From Bacteriovoracaceae bacterium (GTDB taxonomy: Bacteria; Bdellovibrionota; Bacteriovoracia; Bacteriovoracales; Bacteriovoracaceae): a stretch of 51,717 bases of DNA. The DNA lies in NCBI GenBank assembly GCA_947446575.1, contig CANFHC010000021.1:1-51717 (forward strand), read 5' to 3'. The position numbers and the translations under genes are program-made. Below the pieces are notes generated by a model. It was given only the letters and a program-made list of their open reading frames with translations. It was not told the origin of the DNA and did not search any database. Shown here one piece after another: positions 25,358 to 31,182 of the stretch. The stretch's first letter is position 1. Every line of letters begins with the position of its first letter.

Positions 25358-26419
25358 TCAAAAATCTAACCTTTCAGGGCGAGCTGAACTTTCAGCATTT
25401 TTTTTAGAAGATTTACTGAAGTAACTTCTAAAATGATTTCCTTCAGGAGAAAGTTGAATCCAATTTTCATCGATTGGAGATTCTTTTAAGCTCTTTAGTG
25501 TTTCAACTCTCCACTCAATATAATCAGCTTCGCTAAATTTATCAGCAATGGCCTGAATTACCAATCCCATCGTTTTGCGGTAATTAACTTCGACTAAAGG
25601 ATAAATTTTTAACTCACCATGATCTTCATAAACGAAAGAATCAATTTGAATATTAGAAGTGGCGCCCATTTCAAGATATTTCTGAGCAATTTCCGAAGTA
25701 ATTTTTTCTAAACCATTGAGAGAGTAAGTGAATTTTTCATAAATATATTTTTTGAATTTATCCACATTAGAGGAGCCGGCCCCACCTCTAAATCCTCCAA
25801 CTGAAGTATTAAAGTTTTCGACCATAAATTGTCTTTGGATATTACCATTTGAAATTTCAAAAGTTGTTCCAATATCAAAAATTCTATCAAAAACAGGTTC
25901 GAGTAGAACTTTTTCTGTGAGAATTTTTTCTAATGTCTCAGCATGAAGGTCACTTCTTTTAAATTGCACATGACCAATTCCACTAAAACTATGGGGACGT
26001 TTTATTATCCATTTTTCTCTTAATGGAAATTTTTCTAAGTGAGCGCGTAGATCACTTAAGTTTTCAATAATCGCACCTTCTGAAAAACCCCAATTATTTT
26101 CCAGAGCTATTTGAGCAGAAGTCAGTTTAGAATTTAAATTCTTTTCTATTTCTGGATCATGATGATGTCCCCACCAGAATTCATATTCTGTTGCCTTGGG
26201 ATTTAATTCTGGAATAGCAAAACCCAAGTGTTTTAAATCTTCTAAGTAAATTGGATCATAACCTTTTATATTTTTTAAGATCGATGGTTCTTTTTCGATG
26301 AGAAAAAAAATGTACTCAAACTCTCTAATAACTTTTTGACTTGATGGTGAATCTTCTTTGTAGTTCGGATCAAAAAGGGCCGCTTCATAGTCGAGATCGA
26401 CTTTGTAGGTTTTTACCAC
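25358..26419 (-). CDS. ATP-grasp-like enzyme of unknown substrate
   Basis: 353 residues, no signal peptide. The central part has the ATP-grasp pattern: KWIIKRPHSFSGIGHVQFKR (ATP-binding K140 and a glycine loop), VLLEPVF (E174) as adenine-region acid, and metal-binding IQIDSFVYED and LVEVNYRKT (E277) near residues 258-282. ATP-grasp enzymes ligate an acid to an amine through an acyl-phosphate, making peptides, cofactors or amino-acid conjugates. The N-terminal 100 residues include an odd FWWGHHHDPE segment. It overlaps the end of the DUF455 gene by 7 bp, so the two enzymes are translated together and may act in one pathway. Substrate not known. Confidence 0.78.
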   Translation of the reverse strand: MVKTYKVDLDYEAALFDPNYKEDSPSSQKVIREFEYIFFLIEKEPSILKNIKGYDPIYLEDLKHLGFAIPELNPKATEYEFWWGHHHDPEIEKNLNSKLTSAQIALENNWGFSEGAIIENLSDLRAHLEKFPLREKWIIKRPHSFSGIGHVQFKRSDLHAETLEKILTEKVLLEPVFDRIFDIGTTFEISNGNIQRQFMVENFNTSVGGFRGGAGSSNVDKFKKYIYEKFTYSLNGLEKITSEIAQKYLEMGATSNIQIDSFVYEDHGELKIYPLVEVNYRKTMGLVIQAIADKFSEADYIEWRVETLKSLKESPIDENWIQLSPEGNHFRSYFSKSSKKNAESSARPERLDF

Positions 26420-27228
26420 GATTTCCTATTGGTGACTTTAAAGTCATCGCGAAAAGCTTCCAATTGATCTAAGAAAGCATCATCGAAGCCTGCTCGAACT
26501 CTTGATGAGCGGTCAAAATGAATTCCTTTAGATCTCGCGGGAGTCATCACACCAGGAAGATGATTTGTAAAATACGTCCATAGATCAATATCTCTTCTCC
26601 ATAAATTGAGCCAATGGACACCAAGAGCAACATGTGAAATTTCATCTTGAAAAACTATATCCATAATTTTTGCTGTCTCGAAATCTTCAACATCTAAAAA
26701 AGACTTTCCATAAAATTGTGCAAAATCTAAATTGGCAGATTCAAAAATCATCGCCATTGCACAATGAAAATGAGTTGGAGTTTTTAATTTATCCATTGAA
26801 CGCCAGAAAAAATCATTGAGAGGAAAATCCCCCAACTCAATTCCAAAATCTTTCATGCGGTTCATATATAGCTTCAGATGCTTTTGTTCATCTTGAATTG
26901 TTCTTACTAACCCTTTTTTCATTTGCAGTATTTCAGGAGTTGTATCGGGATAAATTAAAAGGGCCGCGGCCATCATTTCTATTGCCAGTAATTCATGATT
27001 GGCAAAAAAATGCAGGGCCAATCCTCTTTTTTCTTCTAAGTGAAAACTTGTATTACGAGGGAATTTAACTTGCTCATTGTTAAACTCTAACCTTGAAGTC
27101 CTGCCGGGATTAACCGGCAGCTCATATGGTCTTAAATTTTCTGTGTATTCAATATTTTTAAGAGGAATGAGTTTATCTTCTAAATTCGTTCCTTCTAAAA
27201 GAATGCGGGCATATTCACAGTAGTGCAT
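26413..27228 (-). CDS. Ferritin-like di-iron protein, DUF455 family
   Basis: 271 residues, soluble. A four-helix ferritin-like bundle with a repeated Glu/ExxH pattern: HELLAIE (E79/E84), IQDEQKH (E114 and H117), FESANLD (E163) and QDEISH (E196 and H199), the ligand set expected for a carboxylate-bridged di-iron centre. DUF455 has no well-established reaction; related di-iron enzymes hydroxylate or oxidise substrates. The gene lies 3 bp after the helicase stop and overlaps the ATP-grasp gene, so all three form one operon. The pairing of a di-iron oxidase-like protein with an ATP-grasp ligase suggests a small-molecule or peptide modification pathway (inference). Confidence 0.85.
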   Translation of the reverse strand: MHYCEYARILLEGTNLEDKLIPLKNIEYTENLRPYELPVNPGRTSRLEFNNEQVKFPRNTSFHLEEKRGLALHFFANHELLAIEMMAAALLIYPDTTPEILQMKKGLVRTIQDEQKHLKLYMNRMKDFGIELGDFPLNDFFWRSMDKLKTPTHFHCAMAMIFESANLDFAQFYGKSFLDVEDFETAKIMDIVFQDEISHVALGVHWLNLWRRDIDLWTYFTNHLPGVMTPARSKGIHFDRSSRVRAGFDDAFLDQLEAFRDDFKVTNRKSW

Positions 27229-27231
27229 AAA

Positions 27232-29907
27232 TTATTTTTTGGATTTTCCTTGAAATTTTCTTTTCTTAGAAGGTTTACCTTGTCTGAAATCTTTATTAGT
27301 TGATCCAACTGCCGAGGCCAAGTGAGATTGTCTCTCTCCTGGTTTTGCACCTGGTTTCCCTGGTGGACCACTACGTCTTGGAAATGGGCGTCTTGTAAAA
27401 CGTCTTTGTTGAAAACATTCATCACATATAGGAAACTTAGCTCCATCCGCGAGTTTTGCTCCACAACTTGAACATGTCGGAGTGATCTTATCAGACAAGA
27501 GTGTATTTAATTTTTCAATGGCTAGTAATTTATTTTCTAAAAGATCAGATTCTTCAAACTCAAAATTTTTATTATTAAAGTGTCGAGCAAGCCATTGATA
27601 AAGCTCTACACATTTAATAGTAGTTTCAAGATAATCAATTTCACTAGAAGTATGATTTATGTGCTCGTTTGGAATGATTTCACTTGAGACATATTTTTTT
27701 AAGATCCAAACATAATACTGAACGTGTTCCAATAAACCTAAGTTAACAGGCGCACAAGCGAATCCAAAAATTTCAGCAGAAGATAAAACATTATTATGAT
27801 CGATATCTTCAACTGTTTCAGCGAGCTCAATCATTTCTTTTAGATCAACACAATAAAATGGCTTCGTAAAAGTCATGGTATTGAAGAGTCTTAAAAATTC
27901 TGCCAGTTTTAAAATTGGAAGATTGTTTGAAGAAAGTGCATTGTTAACTTTTGTAAAAATATCTAAATCTGGACCGACCATACTTTGTGTTTGTTGATCG
28001 AGAGTTGATTCAAGAGCGTGCTGAATATCTGTTAAACCTTCTTCTACTTTTTGCAAACATGTCACAGAGCCCACTGGAAAGCGTTGGAATCTTCCAGCTC
28101 GCCCAGCAATTTGCTTAATCTCACTAACTGTAATTTGATGTTCTTGAGAATTAATATGTTTTGTAAGTGTTGAAAAAACAATTCTCTTTATTGGTAAGTT
28201 CATCCCCATTGAAATGGCATCTGTACTTACAATAACGTCTGTTATTCCTTTATCAAATTTGCGGGCCTGTTCACGGCGAACTTCCGGAGAGAGCATTCCA
28301 TAAATAATAGAAACTTTAAAACCAACTTGTTCTAAATCGTATTTATACTTTAGAGCGTTTCTTCTTGAGAAAACTATTAAAGCATCACTTTTTTGGAGTT
28401 GAGACAATGTTATTGGACGATCTTCTACATGCAGCTCAGTCATGCGCTCGTATTTTTTTACTTCTAATTCATCACCACAAAGTTCAACAATTTGTTTTAC
28501 TAAATCAAAAACTGAACCATCTCCGCAAACATGAACTTCGATAGCATGTAAATTCACTAGGGCGCGAGTCCAGGCCCACCCTCTTTGCTTGTCTGTAATC
28601 ATTTGAATTTCATCGATCACAGCGCATGAGAATTCTTCATTTAATTTTGCCATTTCAATAGTAGACGAATAATGAGTTGCATTTTCAACTTCAATGACTT
28701 CTTCACCAGTAAGCAGTGTTGTCTTTACACCTTTGGTATTCATCGTATCGTATAATTCAGCGGCAAGAAGTCTAAGTGGAGCTAGGTAACAACCTTTTCT
28801 CGCTTTAACTAATGCTTCAATCGCATGATAAGTCTTACCAGAGTTGGTAGGCCCCATATGATAAATAATCTTACGAGGAATTTTTCTTGCATGCGAGTGA
28901 ATCCAAAATTGTCCTAAATACTCTTGAAGAATATTAGAGGAAATATCTTTTCGTTTTAGAATTAGAATAGATTTAATTAATTTTTTAAATTCTGCTTCAA
29001 GATATTTTTCATTTCGCCAAATATTACTAGAGAGTTGTTTAAAAAATCGCGTGTACTCTTCGTCGCTCACGAGATCAATTGAAAGACTTTGATCACTTAA
29101 TTGTTTGTGAAAAAACAAAATAAGATTTTGAGAATGTCTGTGGGCAATCTCTCCAGGGTAAGTAAAGGTCTCTTCGCTTAAAGCTTTAATCTGAGCCTCA
29201 AGACGGTTCAGAGAAGACTTTTTTAACTTGAATTGAACTTGTTGAAATTTTCTATCTAAAACTTTTAATAAGTTTTGATAGTGATTGTTAACCGCTGCAA
29301 TTCCTTTATCGACTTGAGTTGTGATTTGTTCTTCAATTTTAGCTTTCGTGTCGTTAATGGCCTCGACGCATTCGTCGTAAACTACTTCGCGCACTCTTGT
29401 CCTGAAATCAGCCAAACAAGCAACACACTGACAAGTTAGGTTTACGGATTTGAAATCTAAATTGAAATGTTCTTTAACCAAATTTTGAGTTTCAGTGTGA
29501 TTTTTTTCTTTATCATCACTCCATTTTTTCAAAACAGCGCAATGCAAATCGAGGACTGCTGGATTTAATCCACCGTCTTGACCAAAATAAAAAATTTCTT
29601 TTTCTGGCATTAAACAATCATCTACAAAGATAAGTGAGATGACGTTGTCTCTTTGAAGAAATTCAAAAAAATTAACATATTCTGTATTGAAGACTGAAAC
29701 GAGAGAGGGATTACGTTTAAAATTATTCCAAAGTTGAGTTTGTGTTTTTTCAACAAAATTTAAAACAATACCTGCATCTTCAATTGTTCGAAGATAATCA
29801 TCGTTTTCAGCAAAAGAGTGAATTTTGATTAAAGTTTTTCTTTCGGTATCTAAAAAATTGCGAATGCTTGTGTAATCTGGGAGGGCGGGAAAATCAGTCG
29901 TACTCAC
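27232..29907 (-). CDS. Suv3-like RNA helicase with C-terminal zinc ribbon
   Basis: 891 residues from GTG 29907 (AAGGA upstream). The helicase core (about 345-690) is that of the mitochondrial/alphaproteobacterial Suv3 family: YHMGPTNSGKTYHAIEA (Walker A at 352-359), YLAPLRLLAAELYD, TGEEV, CAVIDEIQM (DEIQ box), VIVSTDAISMGMNLP, and QIAGRAGRF. It unwinds RNA and in mitochondria feeds RNA to a degradosome exonuclease. Extras: a ~340-residue N-terminal region with a Cys motif (LTCQCVACLADF), a C-terminal four-Cys ribbon (CSSCGAK...CDEC, near 835-850), and a basic Arg/Gly/Pro-rich tail probably binding RNA. Promoter candidate at 29941-29970. Confidence 0.92.
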   Translation of the reverse strand: MSTTDFPALPDYTSIRNFLDTERKTLIKIHSFAENDDYLRTIEDAGIVLNFVEKTQTQLWNNFKRNPSLVSVFNTEYVNFFEFLQRDNVISLIFVDDCLMPEKEIFYFGQDGGLNPAVLDLHCAVLKKWSDDKEKNHTETQNLVKEHFNLDFKSVNLTCQCVACLADFRTRVREVVYDECVEAINDTKAKIEEQITTQVDKGIAAVNNHYQNLLKVLDRKFQQVQFKLKKSSLNRLEAQIKALSEETFTYPGEIAHRHSQNLILFFHKQLSDQSLSIDLVSDEEYTRFFKQLSSNIWRNEKYLEAEFKKLIKSILILKRKDISSNILQEYLGQFWIHSHARKIPRKIIYHMGPTNSGKTYHAIEALVKARKGCYLAPLRLLAAELYDTMNTKGVKTTLLTGEEVIEVENATHYSSTIEMAKLNEEFSCAVIDEIQMITDKQRGWAWTRALVNLHAIEVHVCGDGSVFDLVKQIVELCGDELEVKKYERMTELHVEDRPITLSQLQKSDALIVFSRRNALKYKYDLEQVGFKVSIIYGMLSPEVRREQARKFDKGITDVIVSTDAISMGMNLPIKRIVFSTLTKHINSQEHQITVSEIKQIAGRAGRFQRFPVGSVTCLQKVEEGLTDIQHALESTLDQQTQSMVGPDLDIFTKVNNALSSNNLPILKLAEFLRLFNTMTFTKPFYCVDLKEMIELAETVEDIDHNNVLSSAEIFGFACAPVNLGLLEHVQYYVWILKKYVSSEIIPNEHINHTSSEIDYLETTIKCVELYQWLARHFNNKNFEFEESDLLENKLLAIEKLNTLLSDKITPTCSSCGAKLADGAKFPICDECFQQRRFTRRPFPRRSGPPGKPGAKPGERQSHLASAVGSTNKDFRQGKPSKKRKFQGKSKK

Positions 29908-29970: not shown

Positions 29971-31182
29971 CTATCTATCTAATTCAACAATGTACGCTAG
30001 CGCCATTTTAGCAAACTTAATCGCGTGAGTTGCATTATTGTTTGACACATTCAAAGTATCGTTTGCTGTATGAATATTGTGATTCATTGTATCCATAGTT
30101 GCTTCAAACGGCATTGATGCTGGGTAACCTTGAGTGTGCCATGAAGCATGGTCAGAACACCCGTAGCCACATTTGTCATATCCCCATTTAATTCCTGGGA
30201 CGTAACGGTCAATAATTGCACCGACAAATTTATTTTGTTGATCGTTAGTATAATCTTGCATTAATACAATATCGAAATCCGGACTTCCTTTAAAGTTTGT
30301 CATATCTAATTGCATGACACCGATAATATTTTCATTTCTTTTTTTGAAATCAGCAGCAATTTCTTTTGAACCTAACAGACCAACTTCTTCTGCTGCATAG
30401 GCCATAAACTTTAGGGTTTTTTGCGGTTGGTATGAATTATCAACAAGTGTTCTGATAACTTCAGTAACCGTTGAGATACCAGATGCATTATCATCAGATC
30501 CCGGTGCGCGAGCTGAAGAGCCTCCCATGTATCCATTGATTGAATCTTGGTGACCACCTAAGACGATCGTTTCATTGGATTGACCTTTAATTGTTAGGAT
30601 AATTGAAGGTTGATCCCATTTTGAATGAGGAAAATATTCAACCGTTGCGTCGGTTCTATTTTTTACTAGTGAAGTCCAAGTATCTTTGATGAAAGCTGCT
30701 GATTTTTTCCCAAACTCGCCTTTATAGTAACGGTTTTGAAATGCTGAGATCTGAGTGATTGTTGCAAAAATATTTTCTGCTTTCATTTGTTCAATCATTG
30801 GTGTCACGATTGCTTCTTGATCTATTTTGTAAGATACGAATGAATTGTTTTTCGCATAAAATTTTTCTTCGTTAGAGTTTAACAAATTTTGAGCATCTGT
30901 TTCATCATCGTGAAGCATGAAGCCTCCGCAACGTTTGAAATCTTTATGCATAAGCATTGAAAGCCACGGGAGAGCGTCTTCATCAATTTTTAAAACACTG
31001 ATACCATCAGTAGTTTGTACTTCTTCAACTCTTGATCCAAACTTTTTTTCTGTGTACTTTAGAGCATCGCTATCGATAGAGATAAAGACTTTCTTCTCTT
31101 GTACTGGTTGAGCTGCATTGACTGAAAAAGCTGAAACTAAAATAAGTCCTGCTACCAGTGAGTTTAATGTTTTGATTTTCAT
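29971..31182 (-). CDS. Secreted M28-family zinc aminopeptidase (leucyl aminopeptidase type)
   Basis: 403 residues with a signal peptide (NSLVAGLILVSAFSVNA, cleavage about residue 24) and a pro-region to about 120. The catalytic domain matches the Vibrio/Aeromonas leucine aminopeptidase: zinc ligands H211 (LGGHQDS), D230 (PGSDDNASG), E266 (AEEVGLLGS, E265 general base), D293 (LDMTN) and H371 (NIHTANDTL); the Cys pair C338 and C342 matches its disulfide. It removes N-terminal residues from peptides outside or in the periplasm, probably feeding the peptide importer. The gene is intact. Confidence 0.94.
   Translation of the reverse strand: MKIKTLNSLVAGLILVSAFSVNAAQPVQEKKVFISIDSDALKYTEKKFGSRVEEVQTTDGISVLKIDEDALPWLSMLMHKDFKRCGGFMLHDDETDAQNLLNSNEEKFYAKNNSFVSYKIDQEAIVTPMIEQMKAENIFATITQISAFQNRYYKGEFGKKSAAFIKDTWTSLVKNRTDATVEYFPHSKWDQPSIILTIKGQSNETIVLGGHQDSINGYMGGSSARAPGSDDNASGISTVTEVIRTLVDNSYQPQKTLKFMAYAAEEVGLLGSKEIAADFKKRNENIIGVMQLDMTNFKGSPDFDIVLMQDYTNDQQNKFVGAIIDRYVPGIKWGYDKCGYGCSDHASWHTQGYPASMPFEATMDTMNHNIHTANDTLNVSNNNATHAIKFAKMALAYIVELDR

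Follow-up and report, generated by a model that had tools for sequence, protein, structure and literature searches.

What do a ferritin-like di-iron protein and an ATP-grasp ligase accomplish together, and does the RNA helicase encoded beside them take part? This question is raised by three consecutive genes in a stretch of 51,717 nt, referred to here as the window, from Bacteriovoracaceae bacterium (assembly GCA_947446575.1, contig CANFHC010000021.1). The genes encode a Suv3-like helicase, a DUF455 protein and a putative ATP-grasp ligase. A preceding sequence-only reading had described a 3-bp gap between the helicase and DUF455 genes and a 7-bp overlap between the DUF455 and ligase genes, all of which is confirmed from the window DNA. 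The arrangement is well past chance: of the 24 genomes sampled from the family, 23 share it, and elsewhere the DUF455–ATP-grasp pair is fused. It is proposed here, with a probability of roughly 0.55, that the DUF455 and ATP-grasp proteins are the two halves of one oxidase/ligase system producing a small modified di- or oligopeptide.

The pair was traced through 114 sampled genomes of Bdellovibrionota, 24 of them from the window's own family (f1). The ligase gene directly follows the DUF455 gene in 23 of these 24, and in all 23 the two frames overlap, by 1–23 bp. In the window, the DUF455 gene ends in ...TCG TGG TAA, codons that also contain the GTG at which the ligase gene begins; AGGAAA precedes this GTG. 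The nested start and this upstream motif make translational coupling of the two genes likely. The remaining family genome, G093, retains the helicase gene and lacks the pair; it was considered as evidence against a link to the helicase and dropped, as the contig ends about 0.3 kb past the helicase gene and the pair may simply be unassembled. Nine genomes from five other families of the phylum carry the pair as a fusion with DUF455 first, in a single frame of 644–802 aa. When GTDB genomes were scanned with the alignment of fused proteins, at least 479 relatives were listed. All 80 loci kept from these are fusions, 646–826 aa in length, with record titles naming Verrucomicrobiota, SAR324, Latescibacterota, Myxococcota (Plesiocystis) and Bdellovibrionota, including Oligoflexales. 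Of 115 genomes sampled evenly from the phylum of Pelagicoccus, three encode a full-length DUF455 protein, each in a frame of 718–729 aa; occurrence there is patchy, yet always as fusion-length proteins.

A FastTree phylogeny of the DUF455 domain, with another DUF455 subfamily as outgroup, separates 23 split from 88 fused proteins as two sister clades (support 0.95 and 0.96). This topology is consistent with one ancient pairing and with a single splitting or fusion event. As a control, the ligase profile had no match (E≤10) in the fetched stretches of eight loci of the other DUF455 subfamily. Taken together, the fusion, the constant gene order, the overlap and the common distribution make a functional link near certain, and the DUF455 and ATP-grasp proteins almost certainly work together. 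Adjacency confined to one species would have spoken against the sequence-only reading; instead, the pair runs through the window's family and is fused in other families and phyla.

The DUF455 half scores 150.2 bits against PF04305 (curated cut-off 34.3). Its putative metal ligands E79, E114xxH117, E163 and E196xxH199 represent the classical E / ExxH / E / ExxH di-iron set. All six are invariant in 32 of 32 homologues, split and fused, which bears out the earlier statement that the set is intact; E84 and D168 are likewise invariant. AlphaFold2 models were obtained for the window ligase and for the fused relative L073 (657 residues, with 44 fusions in the alignment; mean predicted local distance difference test (pLDDT) 92.4, predicted template modelling score (pTM) 0.90). 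In the latter, the DUF455 part is predicted to be a four-helix bundle with the ligands on helices 65–92, 98–124, 148–176 and 180–204. The modelled bundle and the ligand pattern identify this half as a probable ferritin-like di-iron carboxylate protein. Sub-threshold matches of the DUF455 profile are mostly to di-iron proteins, namely bacterioferritin, MiaE, aldehyde-deformylating oxygenase, ribonucleotide reductase (RNR) beta and encapsulated ferritin. The match to the MiaE tRNA hydroxylase (8fhc) is weak (E=0.026) and spans 68 positions only. The window DUF455 protein did not match the haem-oxygenase-like di-iron oxidase (HDO) family; at E≤1, only DUF455 and EncFtn-like models were found.

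Two further groups of proteins show weak PF04305 matches. Frames of 426–552 aa occur in G114 (Pelagicoccus; C45:2826 and C31:144727) and in G135, G177, G205 and G208, and their sequences suggest that a further DUF455-like family may exist in Verrucomicrobiota. A ferritin-like protein of 167 aa is encoded 18 bp downstream of an rlmN-like gene (L002:1501-2004; C14, 65546-66037 region); homologues of this protein occur at 20 or more further loci in the phylum, and rlmN does not lie beside them.

The third protein reaches the cut-off of no ATP-grasp model in Pfam or NCBIfam, and weak matches to Slx4 and methan_mark_16 were dismissed as chance. Its assignment as an ATP-grasp enzyme in the sequence-only reading lies beyond the reach of these models and was confirmed by structure prediction; its family seems not to be covered by either collection. 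In the window ligase model (pLDDT 81.4, pTM 0.81), an ATP-grasp fold is predicted to span the whole protein. The closest solved structure is PGM1 (3wvq, Z 25.7 (VIA), 318 residues, 3.5 Å), followed by BesA (Z 24.0), 8ynd (Z 23.6) and 7r8q (Z 22.4), and the next group begins with PurK (Z 18.9). The C-terminal 400 residues of L073 give the same picture: PGM1 is matched with Z 29.1 (3wvr, 2.9 Å, 351 residues) and Z 28.6 (3wvq), followed by 8ynd (Z 27.8), BesA (Z 25.1), SAOUHSC_02373 (7r8q, Z 24.8) and PurK (Z 19.0). Weak sequence signals are found with 7r8p (E=7e-4, fused profile) and with NCBIfam model NF047900 (E=8.6e-5, fused relative), where both 7r8p/7r8q and NF047900 are taken to represent LdmS, the ʟ-aspartate--ʟ-methionine ligase. 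By their entry titles and by established knowledge, BesA, 8ynd and LdmS are ligases of amino acids or peptides. According to the models, the ligase half is therefore nearest to the PGM1/BesA/LdmS type of amino-acid and peptide ligases among solved structures.

In an alignment of 33 ligase sequences, one of them shortened by a contig end, almost every member retains S97-K98, K140, S146-G147, D260, E277, N279 and R281. R281 apart, these positions would provide the lysine, the glycine-rich loop and the D / E / N ligands for nucleotide and Mg binding in ATP-grasp enzymes. The exceptions are K98, which is substituted in a few sequences, and K140, which is replaced by R in seven f1 sequences; at the hinge, several f1 genera have S, A or Q in place of E174, and there some adaptation to substrate or nucleotide is likely. 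The earlier description of the ATP-grasp residues as intact thus stands with these exceptions. In the fusions, K440, E477, D485, D565, E583, N585 and R587 are invariant across 44 to 80 sequences, and the alignment of 44 fusions contains 55 invariant columns. Within f1, the ligase half evolves fastest: median identities are 25% (ligase), 48% (DUF455) and 58% (helicase). This rate fits a changing specificity, although it does not prove one. Orthologue conservation, on which the sequence-only reading had made its proposal depend, is therefore complete for the di-iron ligands and nearly so for the catalytic residues of the ligase. The idea of a two-step system of DUF455 oxidase and ATP-grasp ligase is strongly supported by the pairing, the fusion and the kept active sites.

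How might such a system operate? The ATP-grasp half would use Mg-ATP to activate an amino acid or short peptide at its carboxylate as an acyl phosphate, which would then be coupled to the amine of a second amino acid or peptide to form an amide. The DUF455 half would activate O2 as a di-iron enzyme and oxidise one of the partners or the product by hydroxylation, desaturation or cleavage. Oxidation could come first, in the way that BesC precedes BesA, or could follow ligation. The outcome would be a small, oxidised di- or oligopeptide. This proposal is directly supported by intact genes, a conserved or fused pair, a full di-iron ligand set and a peptide-ligase-like fold. From these, we infer the oxidase activity, the ligation partners, the order of the steps and the product. 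The broader notion of a two-domain family that oxidises and ligates amino acids or peptides, with a modified peptide that is near-universal in the window's family, is regarded as an even bet.

Table 1. Coordinates of the three genes, the upstream peptidase gene and the putative di-iron ligand codons in the window.
Feature	Position	Strand	Length	Remarks
Suv3-like DExQ/H helicase	27232-29907	-	891 aa	C-terminal zinc-ribbon-like segment; PF22527 DEXQc_Suv3, E=2e-63
DUF455 ferritin-like di-iron protein (putative oxidase half)	26413-27228	-	271 aa	PF04305, E=9.7e-44
ATP-grasp ligase half (predicted PGM1/BesA/LdmS-like fold)	25358-26419	-	353 aa	GTG start
M28-family aminopeptidase (LapA-like)	29971-31182	-		PF04389, E=1.6e-33; NF045908 under its cut-off
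Ligand codon E79	26992-26994			DUF455 gene
Ligand codon E114	26887-26889			DUF455 gene
Ligand codon H117	26878-26880			DUF455 gene
Ligand codon E163	26740-26742			DUF455 gene
Ligand codon E196	26641-26643			DUF455 gene
Ligand codon H199	26632-26634			DUF455 gene

The surroundings of the fusions are variable. Clustering of the neighbours within four genes on either side yielded small groups only and no constant partner gene. Pfam families counted among 55 genes directly next to a fusion and on its strand include M17 aminopeptidase, TauE and PQQ_2 (three each) and M24 (two). The M17 leucyl aminopeptidase gene adjoins the fusion in SAR324 and in a metagenome-assembled genome (MAG) of Oligoflexaceae (L076:4468-5976, L118:35-1159, L109:5147-6649), while in L047 an M14 carboxypeptidase gene overlaps the start of the fusion by 4 bp. 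Together with the M28 gene in f1, these M17, M24 and M14 genes form a recurrence of peptidases that is small in number and serves as a lead without counting as evidence. A gene for a MoxR-type AAA ATPase precedes the fusion in family f12 (L043, L069), and a VWA/CoxE-like gene is also present in L043; MoxR and VWA/CoxE pairs are familiar from the maturation of cofactors or metal enzymes. Genome G032 encodes a lone ligase paralogue of 334 aa without DUF455. Clustered with it (L056:7522-13969) are genes for a carbamoyltransferase, a pyridoxal phosphate (PLP)-decarboxylase-like protein, a glycosyltransferase and a protein of 408 aa that no Pfam model matches. This cluster fits small-molecule synthesis and is probably biosynthetic.

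Several other readings of the pair have to be weighed against an oxidase/ligase system for a small peptide. With PGM1 as the closest structural match, the ligase might act on the terminus of a ribosomal peptide or protein, with DUF455 preparing or modifying a residue, so that the pair would tag proteins or a ribosomally synthesised and post-translationally modified peptide (RiPP). The peptidases beside the fusions (M17 in SAR324 and the Oligoflexaceae MAG, M24 twice, M14 in f22) and in f1 (M28) would agree with such a role; however, they are few, and no conserved precursor gene is present among the recurrent neighbours, where open reading frames below 70–90 aa were not systematically screened. 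Tagging is considered unlikely. That the DUF455 half is instead an iron store, an iron sensor or a structural partner of the ligase, and no oxygenase, is improbable. Bacterioferritin and encapsulated ferritin do occur alongside oxygenases among its weak profile matches, but MiaE, aldehyde-deformylating oxygenase and RNR beta, all catalytic, form the majority, and a ligase has no obvious need for an iron store. Furthermore, the motifs ANHELLAxE, EEQxH, TFEQANLD and DExxHV show little or no variation among the examined fusions, as would be expected of an active site. Doubt also attaches, more strongly, to the formation of a non-peptide bond by the ATP-grasp half, through carboxylation or formylation of an amine in the manner of PurK and PurT, or through carbamoylation. 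PurK, PurT and biotin carboxylase constitute the next structural group for both ligase models (Z 16–19), yet PGM1, BesA, 8ynd and 7r8q lie 2–10 Z units higher in both, and the weak sequence matches favour LdmS.

The suggestion that the helicase makes RNA the target fared worst. The protein is a clear Suv3 relative (PF22527 score 212.9 bits, cut-off 27; E down to 5e-76 with Suv3 chains) with an unannotated N-terminal region of about 330 aa, and could open RNA for oxidation and ligation by the pair. The tight operon in most f1 genomes and the presence of MiaE, a ferritin-like tRNA hydroxylase, among the weak DUF455 matches speak for this. The phylogenetic profile of the helicase is nevertheless unlike that of the pair: it is encoded in 24 of 24 f1 genomes, and elsewhere in the phylum sample one weak match was obtained, in G007 (f8; E≤1e-20). 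At this threshold it was found in none of the nine fusion-bearing genomes of the sample, and no such helicase occurs in the flanks of the 80 fusion loci. In three f1 genomes, a gene on the opposite strand separates helicase and pair, leaving gaps of 777, 850 and 1630 bp. Since the helicase is lacking in the sampled genomes with the fusion and is cut off in these three, the pair works without it. The ligase, moreover, resembles amino-acid and peptide ligases and not RNA ligases. The whole f1 block is syntenic, comprising the M28 peptidase (kept in synteny in most f1 genomes), the helicase, the pair, an aldolase-like gene and further genes; adjacency within f1 alone therefore carries little functional weight, and the fusion elsewhere is decisive. 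The helicase is judged to be a neighbour, probably co-transcribed, and no component of the enzyme system, and RNA modification by all three proteins, already disfavoured, is very improbable. Anti-phage defence was rejected as well: PADLOC gave no match for DUF455, the ligase or the fused relative, and generic matches only for the helicase.

Some observations weigh against the oxidase/ligase system itself. By sequence, DUF455 stays below threshold with known di-iron oxidases (best E about 0.003–0.1), and no characterised DUF455 member was found in the literature library searched, outside which most subscription journals lie. A matching fold, taken alone, is no proof of a reaction. In some genera, K140 is replaced by R and the hinge glutamate E174 by S, A or Q. 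In addition, the fusion loci are without a constant biosynthetic neighbour, which is unusual for a dedicated pathway.

If the proposal holds, it would provide a function for part of DUF455, a family that is also annotated in animals and other eukaryotes, with members in plants and fungi. A modified peptide would then be expected from hundreds of mostly aquatic bacteria and from nearly every sampled member of f1. The fused form represents a single stand-alone enzyme, so the question of oxidation and joining could be addressed with one protein. Within the library mentioned above, neither a function of DUF455 nor the DUF455–ATP-grasp pair is described.

Among known systems, MiaE and aldehyde-deformylating oxygenase share the E / ExxH / E / ExxH ligands and a sub-threshold profile similarity with DUF455 (E 0.03–0.3), a kinship limited to the ferritin-like fold. 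The other DUF455 subfamily, for example from families f6 and f11 of Bdellovibrionota, has the same ligands and the same PF04305 assignment; it differs in its 20–24% identity and lacks an ATP-grasp neighbour in the loci examined. LdmS resembles the ligase half in fold (Z 22–25) and in weak profile similarity (E 8.6e-5). The fused relative, however, reaches 21.4 bits against an equivalog cut-off of 475 for NF047900, the same model has no match to the window ligase at E≤1, and LdmS is not known to have a fused oxidase. BesA and BesC of β-ethynylserine biosynthesis combine a di-iron oxidase with an ATP-grasp ligase of the same fold group (BesA 8yi6, Z 24–25), and BesC acts as the di-iron oxidase before the ligase BesA. 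BesC is a haem-oxygenase-like di-iron oxidase, whereas DUF455 is predicted to have the different, ferritin-like fold; the Bes enzymes are separate proteins of a five-enzyme cluster, whereas DUF455 and ATP-grasp form a stand-alone pair or fusion.

PGM1 of pheganomycin biosynthesis (3wvq/3wvr) and 8ynd/8ynq superpose on the whole ligase half, and in 8ynd the E-x-N-x-R motif (E277-x-N279-x-R281 in the window) is aligned. PGM1 couples a nonproteinogenic amino acid to a small core peptide (PMC8939145). Identity is 10–14%, no polyketide synthase or precursor genes are neighbours here, and the ligase has a ferritin-like protein as its obligate partner, as a pair or as a fusion. Clusters combining a di-iron oxidase with ATP-grasp amino-acid ligases exist, for example mangotoxin MboA with MboC/D (PMC13185094). 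These follow the same logic of oxidase and ATP-grasp ligase, but with a haem-oxygenase-like oxidase and in multi-gene clusters of unfused proteins. Each fold, and the logic of their combination, is thus already known; the distinguishing feature here is that a putative ferritin-like oxidase is fused to a ligase of the PGM1 type, in a form that stands alone and is widespread.

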